This document shows positions 6,594 through 12,288 of a stretch of DNA of 39,261 bases, in pieces (positions within the stretch are counted from its first letter, which is position 1; the number at the start of each line of letters is the position of its first letter). The stretch covers positions 1 through 39,261 of the forward strand of contig JAUILT010000020.1 in assembly GCA_030432925.1 (NCBI GenBank), written 5' to 3'. This DNA is from Bdellovibrionia bacterium. GTDB taxonomy: Bacteria; Bdellovibrionota; Bdellovibrionia; Bdellovibrionales; UBA1609. The position numbers were made by a program, and so were the translations under genes. A model generated the notes under the pieces. The model did not search any database. It was given only the letters and a program-made list of their open reading frames with translations, and was not told where the DNA came from.

Positions 6594-7178
6594 ATGTGTA
6601 AAAAAATATTGATTATTTGTAGCGTCATATTTTCTGTATCTGCGTTTGCGGGTAAGCAGTATGCGGCTCCCTTTTGGTTGGGTGAATACCCGACGGGATA
6701 TGAGTTAACTGCGAATATCTCTTTAAAGGGCAAAGCGTTTCCAAACAACATGCTGACTGACACAGTGATGTGTGAAATGTCCAAAGGGCAGGTCATTCAC
6801 CCATGGGCGCAAAAAACCAACTTTTCTTATGTGGCTGTTTCAGAAATTACAGTCTATCAAATCCTTAAAGATGTTTCTGAGTTTGAAGCCTCCTTTAAGG
6901 CCGGTGACATTGTAGAAGAGTTGACGTACCTTTCTGAAGGCTTTTGTTTGTATAGGAAGCAAGGGCTTATGAATACCGTGGATATGAGCTGTTTTGGAGA
7001 GGGCGATGCCCGTGTTAAAGTCATTGAAAAAGGCAATATCAACCAAGAGGTGTGGTTTCAAGCGACTTGTAAGAGTGGAGAAAAGGCTTGGGTGAGCACG
7101 GAAGCTTTTGAAAAGCAGGCTGCCGGTTCTTTTAAAGAGGCCCAAGTCACGGGGTACGGAGAGGTTTACGAGCCCTAA
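6594..7178 (+). CDS. Secreted protein of unknown function
   Basis: 194 residues with a clear signal peptide (CKKILIICSVIFSVSAFAG) and a strong Shine-Dalgarno (GAGGAG). The mature part has about five cysteines in three clusters ('VMCEM', 'GFCLY', 'SCFGEGD ... TCKSG'), which suggests disulfides in the periplasm or outside the cell. I do not recognise a family. The middle region ('SEGFCLYRKQG', 'QATCKSGEKAWVSTEAF') alternates short strands and loops and may be a small beta-rich domain. The next gene on the same strand is an unrelated cytosolic protein 49 bases downstream. Confidence 0.7.
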   Translation: MCKKILIICSVIFSVSAFAGKQYAAPFWLGEYPTGYELTANISLKGKAFPNNMLTDTVMCEMSKGQVIHPWAQKTNFSYVAVSEITVYQILKDVSEFEASFKAGDIVEELTYLSEGFCLYRKQGLMNTVDMSCFGEGDARVKVIEKGNINQEVWFQATCKSGEKAWVSTEAFEKQAAGSFKEAQVTGYGEVYEP

Positions 7179-7227
7179 TTGGCGAAACTATACTGATCTG
7201 GAAAATTCGAACCAAACCGGTATATGT

Positions 7228-8163
7228 ATGGCACAATTCATAGCAGTGACATTTACACCTCGCCCCGAGGAGAAAACACAAAGAGAGCCCTTCTCGCTGC
7301 GGTGGCGCTTGAGAGATCACTCATTGGCAGGCCGGTTTGCTAAAGTCCTTAAGGCTGCTTGTGATTTTGAAAGCGAAACAGGCTACATGTACAAGCGTGA
7401 ACGCTTTTATAACTTCCCTAGGGGTTATTTTACGAGAGATCGAGTGATCTCTCTCTTGCAAGAGCATATTGCAACAATCAACGAGGCTTATCCGGGCCTC
7501 GTTGATTATCCGGTTTATCGGCAGATGGGGCAAGAGGATATGAATCGCTTGCATACTTACTTTGAAAGGTTTCGAGGCCCTTTATTGGACCCATCTCCGT
7601 ATTACAAAGAGGGATCGCCAGAAGTGAAGTACGCATTTGATGAGGTCAATTTACTGATTCATCGTTTTGAAGATTGTGAGTTTGCAGATAATGAGAAGCC
7701 AAAGGGAAACCCTCGATTTGTTGCTGCCTTTGGTCTGGATAATAAAATTAAGCGTTATCCTTTGGAGGATAAAGATTACGAATTGTTTGATCTTGATGAG
7801 CCCTATGGGTGCCTACGCTTGAACTACTGTGAGGTGGGGAAGCACCTGATGGACGTATTCAATGACCGGGATCATGAGATTGGAGATGAAGCCATTAAGC
7901 CGTTGAGATATTACTCTGCGGACTTCTTTGTGGACTTTAATCCCAAGGCAAATAAAGCAGCATCGGAGAATTATTTAAAAGCTCTTTATCAATGGTGGGA
8001 TGAGAATGAGGAGAAGCTGGAAGGCTTGGGGTTTCATAAGCATGATCCCAAAAATGCTGTGGGAAATATCAAATTAGCAGACTTAGAGAGCAAAATGTCT
8101 CATGAACAAATTGTCGAAGAAATAAGCCTCCGTCAGTGGATTGGTAAGGTGGAGGTTCTTTGA
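7228..8163 (+). CDS. Cytosolic protein of unknown function
   Basis: 311 residues from ATG 7228. The track start at 7108 would overlap the previous gene by 71 bases and its extra residues look non-coding. No signal peptide, TM helix or cofactor motif is visible. The protein is rich in aromatic and charged residues ('YMYKRERFYNFPRGYF', 'DKDYELFDLDEPYGCLRLNYCEVG', 'LYQWWDENEEKL'). I do not recognise a family. The ribosome binding site is poor, so the start is uncertain. Codon use looks like its neighbours and the frame is open throughout, so it is very probably a real gene. Confidence 0.6.
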   Translation: MAQFIAVTFTPRPEEKTQREPFSLRWRLRDHSLAGRFAKVLKAACDFESETGYMYKRERFYNFPRGYFTRDRVISLLQEHIATINEAYPGLVDYPVYRQMGQEDMNRLHTYFERFRGPLLDPSPYYKEGSPEVKYAFDEVNLLIHRFEDCEFADNEKPKGNPRFVAAFGLDNKIKRYPLEDKDYELFDLDEPYGCLRLNYCEVGKHLMDVFNDRDHEIGDEAIKPLRYYSADFFVDFNPKANKAASENYLKALYQWWDENEEKLEGLGFHKHDPKNAVGNIKLADLESKMSHEQIVEEISLRQWIGKVEVL

Positions 8164-8175
8164 GACCGCTTCTAG

Positions 8176-8949
8176 TTAAGGGGCTGCGGAGTCCAAGGCT
8201 TTATTACAGTCCCTGAAATCTCGCCCAGCCTGAAGACAGATGGCAAACCCTAAATTCTCAGAACCCAAAGAGTGATCGCATTTCGCACGGCCGTAACCTT
8301 GGGCGATGCAAATGCTATAGCCAATGCTGTCTGCGGAGTGGCTGAGAGTGTCGTCACAGTCATTTTTTTCTTTTCCAGCAGCCATACAAATGCCGTATCC
8401 CAAATGATTTTTTGAATAGGCCAGGACATCGTCGCAATCTCTTAAAGTTCTTCCGGCAGCCATACAAAAGCCAAACCCCACTTGCTGGCTAGATCTGTCG
8501 AGTGCCTGCTTACATTCGCGCAGATCGTTTCCAGAGGAAAGGCAAAGGGCATACCCCATTTGTCCACTAGTTGCAGATAGAATGGGGTCACAGTCTTTTT
8601 CAGTGCGCCCTGATGCTAGGCAAATTCCATAGGCCATGTGACTGGCTTCACCCTTTAACTTTTGGCACAGTCGGTCTTCGTGGCCAGCCTCAAGACAAAG
8701 AGCATATCCAAGTAAAGGAGAGGGTGCCGGGCTCACCAGAAATAACATGTCTGCATAGGTGACAATTTTTCCGCTTTTTAAGTTCTCTACAAAACGAAGA
8801 GTGGCCTGCCCTGTCGGCTCACGGGTTTTTGTCGTTGAGTCTATCAGGCCAAAAGGGTTTTTGTTGTTATCGTCTTTTGGGTGACAGGCCGTGAGACCTA
8901 GGCTTAGACCCAGGAGGGCTTGTAAGAATAGGTGTGTTGCTTTTGGCAT
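8176..8949 (-). CDS. Lipoprotein with seven ~26-residue Cys-pair repeats
   Basis: 257 residues from ATG 8949, preceded by GAGGAGAAGAG. The track start five codons upstream lies inside that ribosome binding site. A lipobox (LTAC, Cys22) follows a lipoprotein signal peptide. From about residue 80 to the end there are seven tandem repeats of about 26 residues with the pattern G-Y/F-x-x-C-x-x-x-G-x(5)-C, for example 'MAYGICLASGRTEKDCDPIL' and 'LGYGICMAAGKEKNDCDDTL'. Each repeat has two cysteines, often followed by Asp, so each could form one disulfide. It probably sits on the periplasmic or outer face of a membrane as an elongated helical-repeat rod. The resemblance to Sel1/TPR-like solenoids is only in size. 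No known family is recognised. Confidence 0.8.
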   Translation of the reverse strand: MPKATHLFLQALLGLSLGLTACHPKDDNNKNPFGLIDSTTKTREPTGQATLRFVENLKSGKIVTYADMLFLVSPAPSPLLGYALCLEAGHEDRLCQKLKGEASHMAYGICLASGRTEKDCDPILSATSGQMGYALCLSSGNDLRECKQALDRSSQQVGFGFCMAAGRTLRDCDDVLAYSKNHLGYGICMAAGKEKNDCDDTLSHSADSIGYSICIAQGYGRAKCDHSLGSENLGFAICLQAGRDFRDCNKALDSAAP

Positions 8950-9031
8950 ATCTCTTCTCCTCATAAAGTAAAGAAAAAGCAGATATCGTGCCCTTGAAGG
9001 CCAACAGGTTGGATCTTAGGAGGCCTATCAG

Positions 9032-9096: not shown

Positions 9097-10032
9097 CTAA
9101 AGATTCTCTAGAGCCCAGGGTATTTTTTCATTAGGGGAGAGGTTCAGAGGAGCGTCGGAAATAATTTTTTTTAAGAGAGGCTTCAGCCCACGGTTATTTG
9201 CCAGTTGGATGGAAAGGCCTGGCCGGGCATTCATCTCTAAAAGCAAAGGTCCCCTTGATTTATCAATGACAATGTCTACACCCAGATAACCGATACGGGC
9301 GAGCAGTGACGCCTTAGCCGATAGGCTCAGAACTGTGGACCAGTTTTCAATCTGAAAGCCTTTTAGTTTGAGGCGAGTGTCTGGATGATTTGTGACCTCT
9401 CTGTCAAATTGTATAGAGTGAAATATTAAGCCAGTTTTCAGATCGAGGCCACAACCAACAGCACCGAGATGAAGGTTACCCTTTCCTCCTGAAACATTTG
9501 TTGGAATTCGTAGCATGGCCATAATGGGAAAACCTTGAAAAACAATAATGCGAATGTCTGGCACTCCCAGTGGGGAAATACTGCTGATATTAGGGCTGTT
9601 AATAATAAGTTCCTGAATAATGGCTTCGTCAGCTTGATTATCTAAGGAGTATAATCCACTTAAAATTCCAGAGATATAATGTCGAAACCTGTACTCAGTC
9701 ATATCCTCTTTAGAGGTAATGAAGAGGGGGGAGCCCCCATGTTCAACAACGGCTTTGACAATGAGAATTCCCCCTCCCTGAGAACCACGTCCAGGCTTAA
9801 CGACAAATCCATTTTTGAACTCTCTGAGTTGGGTTATGGCGCCTCGGACTTCTCCGTGGAAACGGATATGTAGTAATGTATTGGGGGTGGGAATATTATT
9901 GGCCAGTGCCAACTGAGAGGTTTTCACCTTGTTGTCGACAAGTGGAAAATCACGACGGTGGTTGTGGGGTAGAATCAGATTTCTGATTCTAAAATTATTG
10001 CCCAGGATATCATTGATCGTAGAAAATTTCAT
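9097..10032 (-). CDS. ATP-grasp alpha-L-glutamate ligase-like protein
   Basis: 311 residues, RimK-related ATP-grasp ligase. The glycine-rich ATP loop is 'FVVKPGRGSQGGGILIV'. The adenine/Mg region ends in 'GVDIVIDKSRGPLLLEMNARPGLSIQLAN', with the E-x-N metal ligands of ATP-grasp enzymes. The family couples a carboxylate to an amine using ATP, often glutamate as donor, and the acceptor here is unknown. It is the last gene of a three-gene operon, starting 1 base after the stop of the transglutaminase/7TM gene. That trio is conserved in many proteobacteria, which supports the family call over D-Ala-D-Ala ligase or glutathione synthase. Confidence 0.8.
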   Translation of the reverse strand: MKFSTINDILGNNFRIRNLILPHNHRRDFPLVDNKVKTSQLALANNIPTPNTLLHIRFHGEVRGAITQLREFKNGFVVKPGRGSQGGGILIVKAVVEHGGSPLFITSKEDMTEYRFRHYISGILSGLYSLDNQADEAIIQELIINSPNISSISPLGVPDIRIIVFQGFPIMAMLRIPTNVSGGKGNLHLGAVGCGLDLKTGLIFHSIQFDREVTNHPDTRLKLKGFQIENWSTVLSLSAKASLLARIGYLGVDIVIDKSRGPLLLEMNARPGLSIQLANNRGLKPLLKKIISDAPLNLSPNEKIPWALENL

Positions 10033-10033
10033 A

Positions 10034-11623
10034 TTACCTATTGATATAAAGATCTTTGAAGCGAAAGAATTCTGTCAACCTGAAGCCAGAGTAGGTGCCG
10101 ATAAAGATATTGAGACCAATAGTTATCATTAGAAGTTCAGGATGATTAAAAACAGCCAGGCCCAGTGCTTCAATGGAAAATATCAAAAAACTGCAGATCG
10201 CCACAGTGACGGTTCCTAAAAAAGCTTTCGTTGTGTTTTTAATACCTTCCTCCTGTAGTTTGATGACAAATCTTTCTGTGAAAATTGTGATGATAACAAT
10301 TGGGAAGGCACTAATGACCGAGGCAGCCATTTCTACGAGGCCTAGCTGTTCTGAAATCAGCGCCACCACAATATAAATGATGACGACAAAAGTCAGTACT
10401 ATTGAAAGTCTCGGAACGGCCAGCAAGTAGAGGCGGTTCAAAGAGTAGTGAAGAGCAACTCCAAATAAACCCACAATTGTGGCCAGGATGAACCCAACAA
10501 GTAGGGAGGTTTCCAAAAAGAAAAGGCTCAAAAGAATAGGGGTAAAGACTCCAAAGGTAGTGATGCCCACAATATTCCGGAAAAAACAAAGGACAAGAGT
10601 GCCAATAGGTATCAGGAGGAGTGTGTAAAACACTTTTTGCAAAGGGAGTGGAAGTGTATAAAGGGAGATCACCGGCAAGACGTTGTTTTGGTTGACGATG
10701 TTTTCCACAGCTTCTCTGGAATCATAAAAGACCGTTTGATTGGGACGAACTGTGATTTTATAAACATCTCTGGAGGCCAGAAGGGTCAGGTTTTGATCAA
10801 TGTCTCGTTGTATGAGGAGAAAGTTATCGGGAGGACTATCCAAATCTTTAAATTCGGAGGAAAAAAGTTTCCAGGAGCCATTGATATAAACTTCATTGAG
10901 AAAGGCTCTAATGTGACGGACGTCTTTTTTATTGGATGTGTCAGTAATAAATGTGCCAAACGAAATCCGAGATGGAATCTTATTGAGGCGCAAAAGTGCT
11001 GTAAAAAGTCGGGCCTGGTCCAGAGAGTTTCCACTGAAAAGCCTGACAACATCTGAAAAGTTGGAGTCTCCCGGGGTGAGGACGAATTCATCAGTAATGA
11101 AGTAGCTAATTTTATTGATCTTATCTTTGATGCTCTCTCTTGGGCTCACTAGAGACTCGTTGAGCTTACTTAGGTCTTCAAACCCCTGTTCATCAACCCA
11201 TGAAATATCCAAGTAGGCCTTTCGTTCGCTTTTAGACAATTTATCTTTCTGTGTTTTCCTGGCATCTGTCCGTGTGATTATTGCTGCAGCTTTGATATCT
11301 CCGTTAATAATGACATTTTCTTTGGATATAGCTAAGTACTTGTCCTTTTTTCGGTAGACGGATGTCAGTTCTGGGTTTGGAGATATTTTATATGATTTCA
11401 CTGTCTGATAATCAGCACTCGGTGGAACTGGCAGGAACAGCTCATCTTGTAAGCTATTTTTCAATCGTTTCACTGCAGATTTTTTGATCTGAACTTCATA
11501 ATTCCATGTATCTGTAGATTTGAGAGGGAGAAATGGCATGTCTAAAACAAAAACTTTGTAGGTCACTATAACTATTGGTGTGATCACAAAAAATACACCC
11601 AAGTAGAGGGCTCGCATATTCAC
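10034..11623 (-). CDS. Inactive transglutaminase fused to seven transmembrane helices
   Basis: 529 residues. An N-terminal TM helix (about 5-25) leads to a periplasmic transglutaminase-like domain (about 30-330) with the family signature 'ARLFTALLRLNKIPSRISFGTF'. The position expected for the nucleophile Cys is in 'NSLDQARLF' with no Cys, so the domain is probably non-catalytic and may bind a substrate. Residues about 335-520 hold about seven hydrophobic helices. This architecture is known as a uniform family encoded beside a RimK-like ligase and a retropepsin-like protease, exactly as here. It overlaps the protease gene by 4 bases (ATGA), indicating translational coupling. Confidence 0.8.
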   Translation of the reverse strand: MNMRALYLGVFFVITPIVIVTYKVFVLDMPFLPLKSTDTWNYEVQIKKSAVKRLKNSLQDELFLPVPPSADYQTVKSYKISPNPELTSVYRKKDKYLAISKENVIINGDIKAAAIITRTDARKTQKDKLSKSERKAYLDISWVDEQGFEDLSKLNESLVSPRESIKDKINKISYFITDEFVLTPGDSNFSDVVRLFSGNSLDQARLFTALLRLNKIPSRISFGTFITDTSNKKDVRHIRAFLNEVYINGSWKLFSSEFKDLDSPPDNFLLIQRDIDQNLTLLASRDVYKITVRPNQTVFYDSREAVENIVNQNNVLPVISLYTLPLPLQKVFYTLLLIPIGTLVLCFFRNIVGITTFGVFTPILLSLFFLETSLLVGFILATIVGLFGVALHYSLNRLYLLAVPRLSIVLTFVVIIYIVVALISEQLGLVEMAASVISAFPIVIITIFTERFVIKLQEEGIKNTTKAFLGTVTVAICSFLIFSIEALGLAVFNHPELLMITIGLNIFIGTYSGFRLTEFFRFKDLYINR

Positions 11624-12288
11624 TGTTTACCTCCTAATACTCTGGACTGGGAGACATCCACAATATAGTCACCAATCAGAAGGTTGCGACCTACAAGAAA
11701 CTTATGCCGAAGGTTTGATCTGTCATTCAGGTTGACATTGGTTTCAATGGATCGGTCACCAAATAAGACATTCAACCGGATCACATAGCGGTTTCCGGAG
11801 ATGCCGCTGGTGCCTTTGACCTTTGATTTTTTTATAACTTTTTTTAGAAGCGTGTGTTTGTTTCCAGAGAAGTCTTTTGTGGTGAATTCCACATAAGATT
11901 CACCTTGTATCTGCTTTTCTTTGATATTTTCAGCGTGCATGGAGTTGGTTTGAGCCCCAGTGTCCACTCTTGCCTTGAACCTAACTTTTGGATTGTCGAG
12001 TTCAATCCACTCCACTCTGCCAACAATCAATTTTTCAAACTTTTTTCCTTTGAGTTGGATGTTCTTTTTTCGAACTTTTCGGGAAAGCAGCGAGAGCTCT
12101 CGAATTTCAGGCAGAATTTCACTTCGAAACCTTAAATAAATACGGTTGCTGATTTCATTGTAAAAACTCTCTGAAAACTCTCTTTCGGCCGGGGGAGTGT
12201 CGTTGGACGGCTTCTCGTTGGCGACGGAGGTGTTGAAAACCAGTATTGTGCTAATCAGGATACAGAGGAGGGGGGTGGTGAGTGTCAT
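11620..12288 (-). CDS. Retropepsin-like aspartic protease (ATP-dependent zinc protease/RimB family)
   Basis: 222 residues with a signal peptide (MTLTTPLLCILISTILVFNTSVA). The catalytic domain (about 75-215) has 'KLIVGRVEWIEL', then 'FKARVDTGAQTNSMHAENI', with the DTGA motif of retropepsin-type aspartic proteases, and 'HKFLVGRNLLIGDYIVDV' near the end. The family was long named ATP-dependent zinc protease, but the active-site motif is aspartic. It is first in the operon with the transglutaminase/7TM protein and the ATP-grasp ligase. The export signal places it on the same (periplasmic) side as the inactive transglutaminase domain, so it may process a substrate presented there. The substrate is unknown. 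Confidence 0.8.
   Translation of the reverse strand: MTLTTPLLCILISTILVFNTSVANEKPSNDTPPAEREFSESFYNEISNRIYLRFRSEILPEIRELSLLSRKVRKKNIQLKGKKFEKLIVGRVEWIELDNPKVRFKARVDTGAQTNSMHAENIKEKQIQGESYVEFTTKDFSGNKHTLLKKVIKKSKVKGTSGISGNRYVIRLNVLFGDRSIETNVNLNDRSNLRHKFLVGRNLLIGDYIVDVSQSRVLGGKQ

Follow-up and report, generated by a model that had tools for sequence, protein, structure and literature searches.

Introduction

In mitochondrial CHCH proteins, which carry the twin CX9C motif, each C-x9-C runs along one helix and the disulfide bonds join two helices. HcpB and HcpC of Helicobacter, which consist of Sel1-like repeats (SLR; PMC2581425), are a known bacterial case of alpha/alpha units in tandem that are bridged by disulfides. 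The middle repeats of Helicobacter pylori CagY have two cysteines per helical module; the modules comprise 31 and 38–39 aa (PMC2581425) and a disulfide has been modelled that links a 10-aa helix to one of 17 aa (PMC10706595). A helix-loop-helix core is also found in Cin1 of Venturia inaequalis, a secreted protein made of Cys-rich tandem repeats (PMC4617103, PMC9632046).

Here we describe a protein encoded in a 39,261-nt stretch of DNA from a Bdellovibrionia bacterium (contig JAUILT010000020.1), which is called the window below. Like HcpB/HcpC it is made of tandem helix-pair units, the helices being predicted and the bond inferred, but in place of the 36-aa unit with TPR-like packing of Sel1/Hcp it has units of 24–26 aa (20–21 aa in most relatives) with the pattern C-x3-G-x5-C. 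As in the middle repeat region of CagY there are two cysteines per predicted alpha-helical unit, whereas CagY is a large type IV secretion protein with longer modules (31/38–39 aa) and the window protein has no Pfam match. Cin1 (PDB 2LHT) contains C-x3-G-x5-C, the motif of the window units, twice; unlike the window units with their two predicted helices, it is fungal and Venturia-specific, with units of 52–64 aa that form three-helix bundles. The Cys-x9-Cys spacing is shared with twin CX9C proteins, but in each window unit a helix break is predicted at the conserved Gly between the two cysteines. The length of its units, together with the outcome of the profile and fold searches, places the window protein outside Hcp/Sel1, CagY and Cin1. 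The best reading by analogy is that it works like these proteins, as helical units with Cys pairs that are arrayed in tandem and lie outside the cytoplasm, and is a member of none of them.

Results

A putative lipoprotein with seven cysteine-pair repeats

The open reading frame spans exactly 8176–8949 on the minus strand, has a product of 257 aa and is single-copy in its own genome. Since the Shine-Dalgarno sequence AGGAG lies 7 nt 5' of the ATG at 8949, we preferred this start over the in-frame ATG at 8964. Residues 19–22 read LTAC behind a hydrophobic stretch, as judged by eye, and match the lipobox pattern [LVI][ASTVI][GAS]C. The features are as follows:

8176..8949, minus strand: CDS of the putative 257-aa lipoprotein with seven Cys-pair repeats (ORF and translation, AGGAG before the start)
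8884..8949, minus strand: putative lipoprotein signal peptide, residues 1–22, lipobox L-T-A-C22, His at +2 (pattern recognised by eye)
8713..8883, minus strand: linker, residues 23–79 (AlphaFold, single sequence)
8638..8712, minus strand: repeat unit 1, LGYALCLEAGHEDRLCQKLKGEASH (motif match)
8560..8637, minus strand: repeat unit 2, MAYGICLASGRTEKDCDPILSATSGQ (motif match)
8482..8559, minus strand: repeat unit 3, MGYALCLSSGNDLRECKQALDRSSQQ (motif match and AlphaFold)
8404..8481, minus strand: repeat unit 4, VGFGFCMAAGRTLRDCDDVLAYSKNH (motif match and AlphaFold)
8326..8403, minus strand: repeat unit 5, LGYGICMAAGKEKNDCDDTLSHSADS (motif match and AlphaFold)
8254..8325, minus strand: repeat unit 6, IGYSICIAQGYGRAKCDHSLGSEN (motif match)
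8179..8253, minus strand: repeat unit 7, LGFAICLQAGRDFRDCNKALDSAAP (motif match)

Residues 80–257 form seven consecutive C-x3-G-x5-C units of 24–26 aa, which start at residues 81, 106, 132, 158, 184, 210 and 234 (steps of 25, 26, 26, 26, 26 and 24). An earlier note on this DNA had described seven consecutive units of about 26 residues after a lipobox, and reading of the ORF confirms this. Its pattern G-Y/F-x2-C-x3-G-x5-C fits six of the seven units literally, while unit 2 has Ala at the first position; all seven fit [GA][YF]xxCxxxGxxxxxC. Every one of the 14 cysteines behind the lipobox is located inside a unit. When the mature sequence was shuffled 20,000 times, 19,982 of the shuffles contained no match, 18 contained one and none contained more; the regularity of the seven units is far beyond chance. 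The units are only 24–50% identical to each other in protein and 39–58% in DNA, which argues for an old array, unlike a fresh slippage array. What they conserve at the sequence level is the frame of Cys, Gly and hydrophobic residues.

Searches against known families

Searches of Pfam, NCBIfam, PHROGs, PADLOC and PDB sequences returned no convincing family for the window protein, in line with the earlier note, whose author recognised no named repeat family with this spacing; a check of the relatives supports this as well. Matches to Pfam TDBD, NCBIfam HAD and PDB zinc fingers were weak or below cut-offs and were rejected. In the Pfam scan at E up to 10, in which very weak matches may be hidden by HMMER filters, TDBD alone was listed, below its cut-off, and there was no match to CHCH, CagY or Sel1, the last having been named beforehand as an example of a known family that would speak against the note. 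As far as the libraries searched go, the family is undescribed.

When the unit profile was compared with the PDB, the sole match was Cin1 (2lht) at E = 3.6. This is not significant, and we treat it as a lead and make no claim of homology. We consider it very improbable that the protein is a strongly diverged true member of a Sel1-like or Cin1-like family lying below the sensitivity of the searches. The principle of tandem Cys-rich alpha/alpha units is the same and the one profile match does repeat the motif, but Sel1 is absent from the matches listed at E up to 10, the units of 20–26 aa compare with 36 (Sel1) and 52–64 (Cin1), and Foldseek with the predicted models found neither fold, nor any other PDB or viral match.

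Predicted structure

AlphaFold run on the single sequence predicted 14 short helices arranged in pairs through the repeats, with a mean pLDDT of 58 over the whole protein and about 53–79 by blocks in the repeat region. The linker was predicted as a low-confidence tail followed by two weakly predicted helices (46–59 and 65–72). A second run covered units 3–5, using a 7-row alignment (A6) of window and locus sequences. It reached a mean pLDDT of 77 and a pTM of 0.59, with helices at 2–9, 14–23, 27–35, 40–49, 53–61 and 66–76, that is one hairpin per unit with the turn at the Gly. Two of its five models were good (pLDDT 77 and 71) and the other three remained below 50.

The two runs agree, at moderate confidence, on the helical hairpin per unit that the earlier note had supposed, and the regular fold it had asked structure prediction for is seen in the models as paired short helices. 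Its further proposal of a rigid surface rod does not follow from the models: pTM ranged from 0.47 to 0.59 across the AlphaFold runs, too low to fix the arrangement of units or the overall shape.

Relatives and their distribution

A single-sequence search matched G019 alone, both within the family and across 144 genomes of the class. Profiles (A1, A2) run over 369 genomes of the phylum detected real relatives in G019, G217, G252, G308 and G337 in addition to the window's genome. Of the 369 genomes, 6 carry a member of the family, the window's own counted, as does one Bdellovibrionales MAG. The distribution is patchy, since the same-genus genomes G008 and G009 lack the gene by single-sequence search. 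The G252 protein is also present in the public MAG record SMWT01000017.1, 'Deltaproteobacteria bacterium N074bin46' (L153). The Bdellovibrionales MAG (L114) encodes a short three-unit relative with an odd number of cysteines, an irregular first unit and an uncertain start, which we left out of the Cys-spacing count. The same contig encodes a secreted 145-aa protein (L114 7111–7548, minus strand) in which a YKGRYGYDAxAR-type repeat of about 20 aa recurs about six times; it is almost Cys-free and looks like another repeat family.

We added the L114 and L153 proteins to the profile (A3). In 50 mixed genomes A3 recovered G404 and G415, the genomes of L114 and L153, and no others. Neither 189 genomes from the phylum of Enhygromyxa nor 299 from that of Thiothrix gave a match. 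A single borderline match came from each of two further samples, 198 genomes from the phylum of a Bacteroidetes MAG and 148 from that of a Desulfarculales MAG, and both matches were rejected on reading. Profile search of these four other phyla (834 sampled genomes) therefore gave no real match. Viral contigs, phages and plasmids contained no relative. Degenerate DNA pattern scans of genomes and viral contigs gave, among the matches listed, L153 and L114 as the only real ones; the remaining listed matches were almost all chance or low-complexity.

Several weak profile matches were rejected (G128, G299, G022, G028, G354, a second match in G337 (L035), and G1064 and G1110 from the other-phylum samples) because they lay in another frame of another gene, had a stop inside or nearby, or comprised a single unit. 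G214, G156, G190 and G318 gave weak partial matches, three of these four with stops or very short frames.

The earlier note had proposed looking for homologues with variable repeat number, and such homologues exist: relatives have 3–10 copies, mostly of 20–21 aa against 24–26 aa in the window. Copy numbers of 5, 6, 7 and 10 occur among members, and the signal type also differs. In G308 there are three tandem paralogues of 7 units each (L005 1405–1914, 1932–2435 and 2593–3096). Same-position units match better between the second and third paralogue (0.57 against 0.44), so the repeat array predates the duplication separating these two. The paralogues adjoin an ORF resembling translation initiation factor IF-3.

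The relative in G337 (L024 1132–1617, plus strand) passes the Pfam zinc-knuckle cut-off with 31.2 vs 27 bits by summation of weak repeats; its zinc-knuckle annotation in public databases is likely spurious.

One might suppose that the Cys-pair repeats in other genomes arose by convergence and are no homologues, which would be compatible with the hairpin model of the window protein. Units of different proteins are on average 30% identical over 18 columns, much of this through Cys, Gly, Ala and Leu, and the carriers are scattered genomes whose proteins differ in signal type and context. We nevertheless regard convergence as unlikely, for a profile from the window and G019 units alone picked up the proteins of G308, G252 and G217 (E 3e-7 to 4e-4), every member is exported and almost wholly made of repeats, and the genomes sampled from other phyla contained no real match.

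Unit anatomy and cysteine pairing

For the anatomy of the unit we counted 55 units from 8 proteins. Both cysteines are invariant, Gly occupies +4 in 43 and Ala or Gly position -2 in 53 of the 55. Position -1 is mostly aliphatic, +1 mostly hydrophobic and the third residue past the second Cys again mostly aliphatic. The position of the Tyr/Phe of the window is taken by Glu or Gln in most relatives. A conserved His or a C-x2-C pattern was not found in the units.

The spacing of the cysteines within a unit is 10 in 48/55, 11 in 6/55 and 12 in 1/55. Between units it is 10–11 in the relatives, with 10 in G308 and G252 and 11 in G019, and 14–16 in the window. All eight proteins have an even number of mature cysteines, none of them outside the units, and the arrays begin and end on whole units, so that pairing within units would leave no Cys unpaired. 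The near-fixed spacing within units, the variable spacing (10–16) between them and the whole-unit array ends suggest one disulfide inside each unit.

Alternatively, the second Cys of each unit could bond to the first Cys of the next and thereby create a continuous covalent chain. In the 20-aa relatives, where both spacings are 10, spacing alone does not decide. This arrangement seems distinctly unlikely to us, as the distance between units varies while that within units hardly does, the first and last Cys of each array would be left partnerless, and the models turn at the Gly within the unit.

Oxidation machinery and genomic context

DsbB was not detected in the window's own genome (96% complete), which counts against the disulfide per unit proposed in the earlier note; Cys parity and the spacing in relatives speak for it indirectly. 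Within the family DsbB was detected in only 6 of 47 genomes, the search being negative for the window's own and for 40 of the other 46, even though exported proteins rich in Cys occur. Helicobacter pylori, with its disulfide-rich repeat proteins, is also without classical DsbA/DsbB (PMC4597128).

The failure to detect DsbB, together with fourteen regularly spaced cysteines in one envelope protein, could also point to reduced or redox-active Cys pairs that serve in metal binding or as a thiol buffer, with no structural role. We rate this as quite improbable: the units have neither a conserved His nor C-x2-C, the nine-residue spacer with its conserved Gly and hydrophobic frame looks structural, and the zinc-knuckle match of the L024 relative has no stretch passing on its own and no CCHC.

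Upstream of the lipoprotein gene, on the same strand, lies a set of ATP-grasp (PF14397), 7TM-transglutaminase (PF14402) and Zn protease (PF05618) genes (9097–12288, minus strand). The ATP-grasp and 7TM genes stay together in several genomes of the family; in G010, G024, G029 and G031 both are present and the lipoprotein gene is absent within the flank read. The gene set therefore gives no function for the lipoprotein, and we rejected the adjoining operon as functional context because it is not conserved together with the lipoprotein gene. No promoter-like site was found near the lipoprotein gene. On the plus strand, 6594–7178 encodes a 194-aa protein that has a signal peptide and belongs to no Pfam family. 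The end of this frame overlaps the listed start of the next ORF (7108–8163), likewise without Pfam family.

Discussion

In summary, we think it somewhat more probable than an even chance that the window encodes an exported, lipid-anchored protein that serves in the cell envelope as a scaffold of repeated, disulfide-locked helical hairpins. The protein would be exported and lipid-anchored via its lipobox-type signal and would belong to a small undescribed family. Each unit would consist of two helices with a turn between them at the conserved Gly: the first would be short, about 9 residues, and the second would have about 9–10 residues in the window protein and probably fewer in the 20-aa relatives. 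The first Cys, placed in the final turn of helix 1, would form a single disulfide within the unit with the second, which would lie in the opening turns of helix 2. Joined by loops of variable length, the units may form a string of individually locked hairpins on the membrane, most likely at the outer membrane, on its periplasmic side or at the surface. Most likely the protein would be stable and protease-resistant and would serve other envelope proteins as a binding scaffold or as a spacer, contacting them through those residues on the unit surfaces that vary. By analogy with the systems above, a binding scaffold is plausible.

The wider proposal, which we place slightly below even, is a new phylum-restricted family whose minimal helical hairpin of 20–26 residues, each with its own disulfide, would be among the shortest alpha/alpha tandem units, used in 3–10 copies for envelope scaffolds. 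For curators this would be a family absent from Pfam and NCBIfam. If the proposal is true, a compact, covalently locked hairpin unit would join the repertoire of repeat proteins and could be a template for stable designed binders, and the range found in nature, with units of 20 to 26 aa in 3 to 10 copies, would inform how envelope scaffolds evolve.
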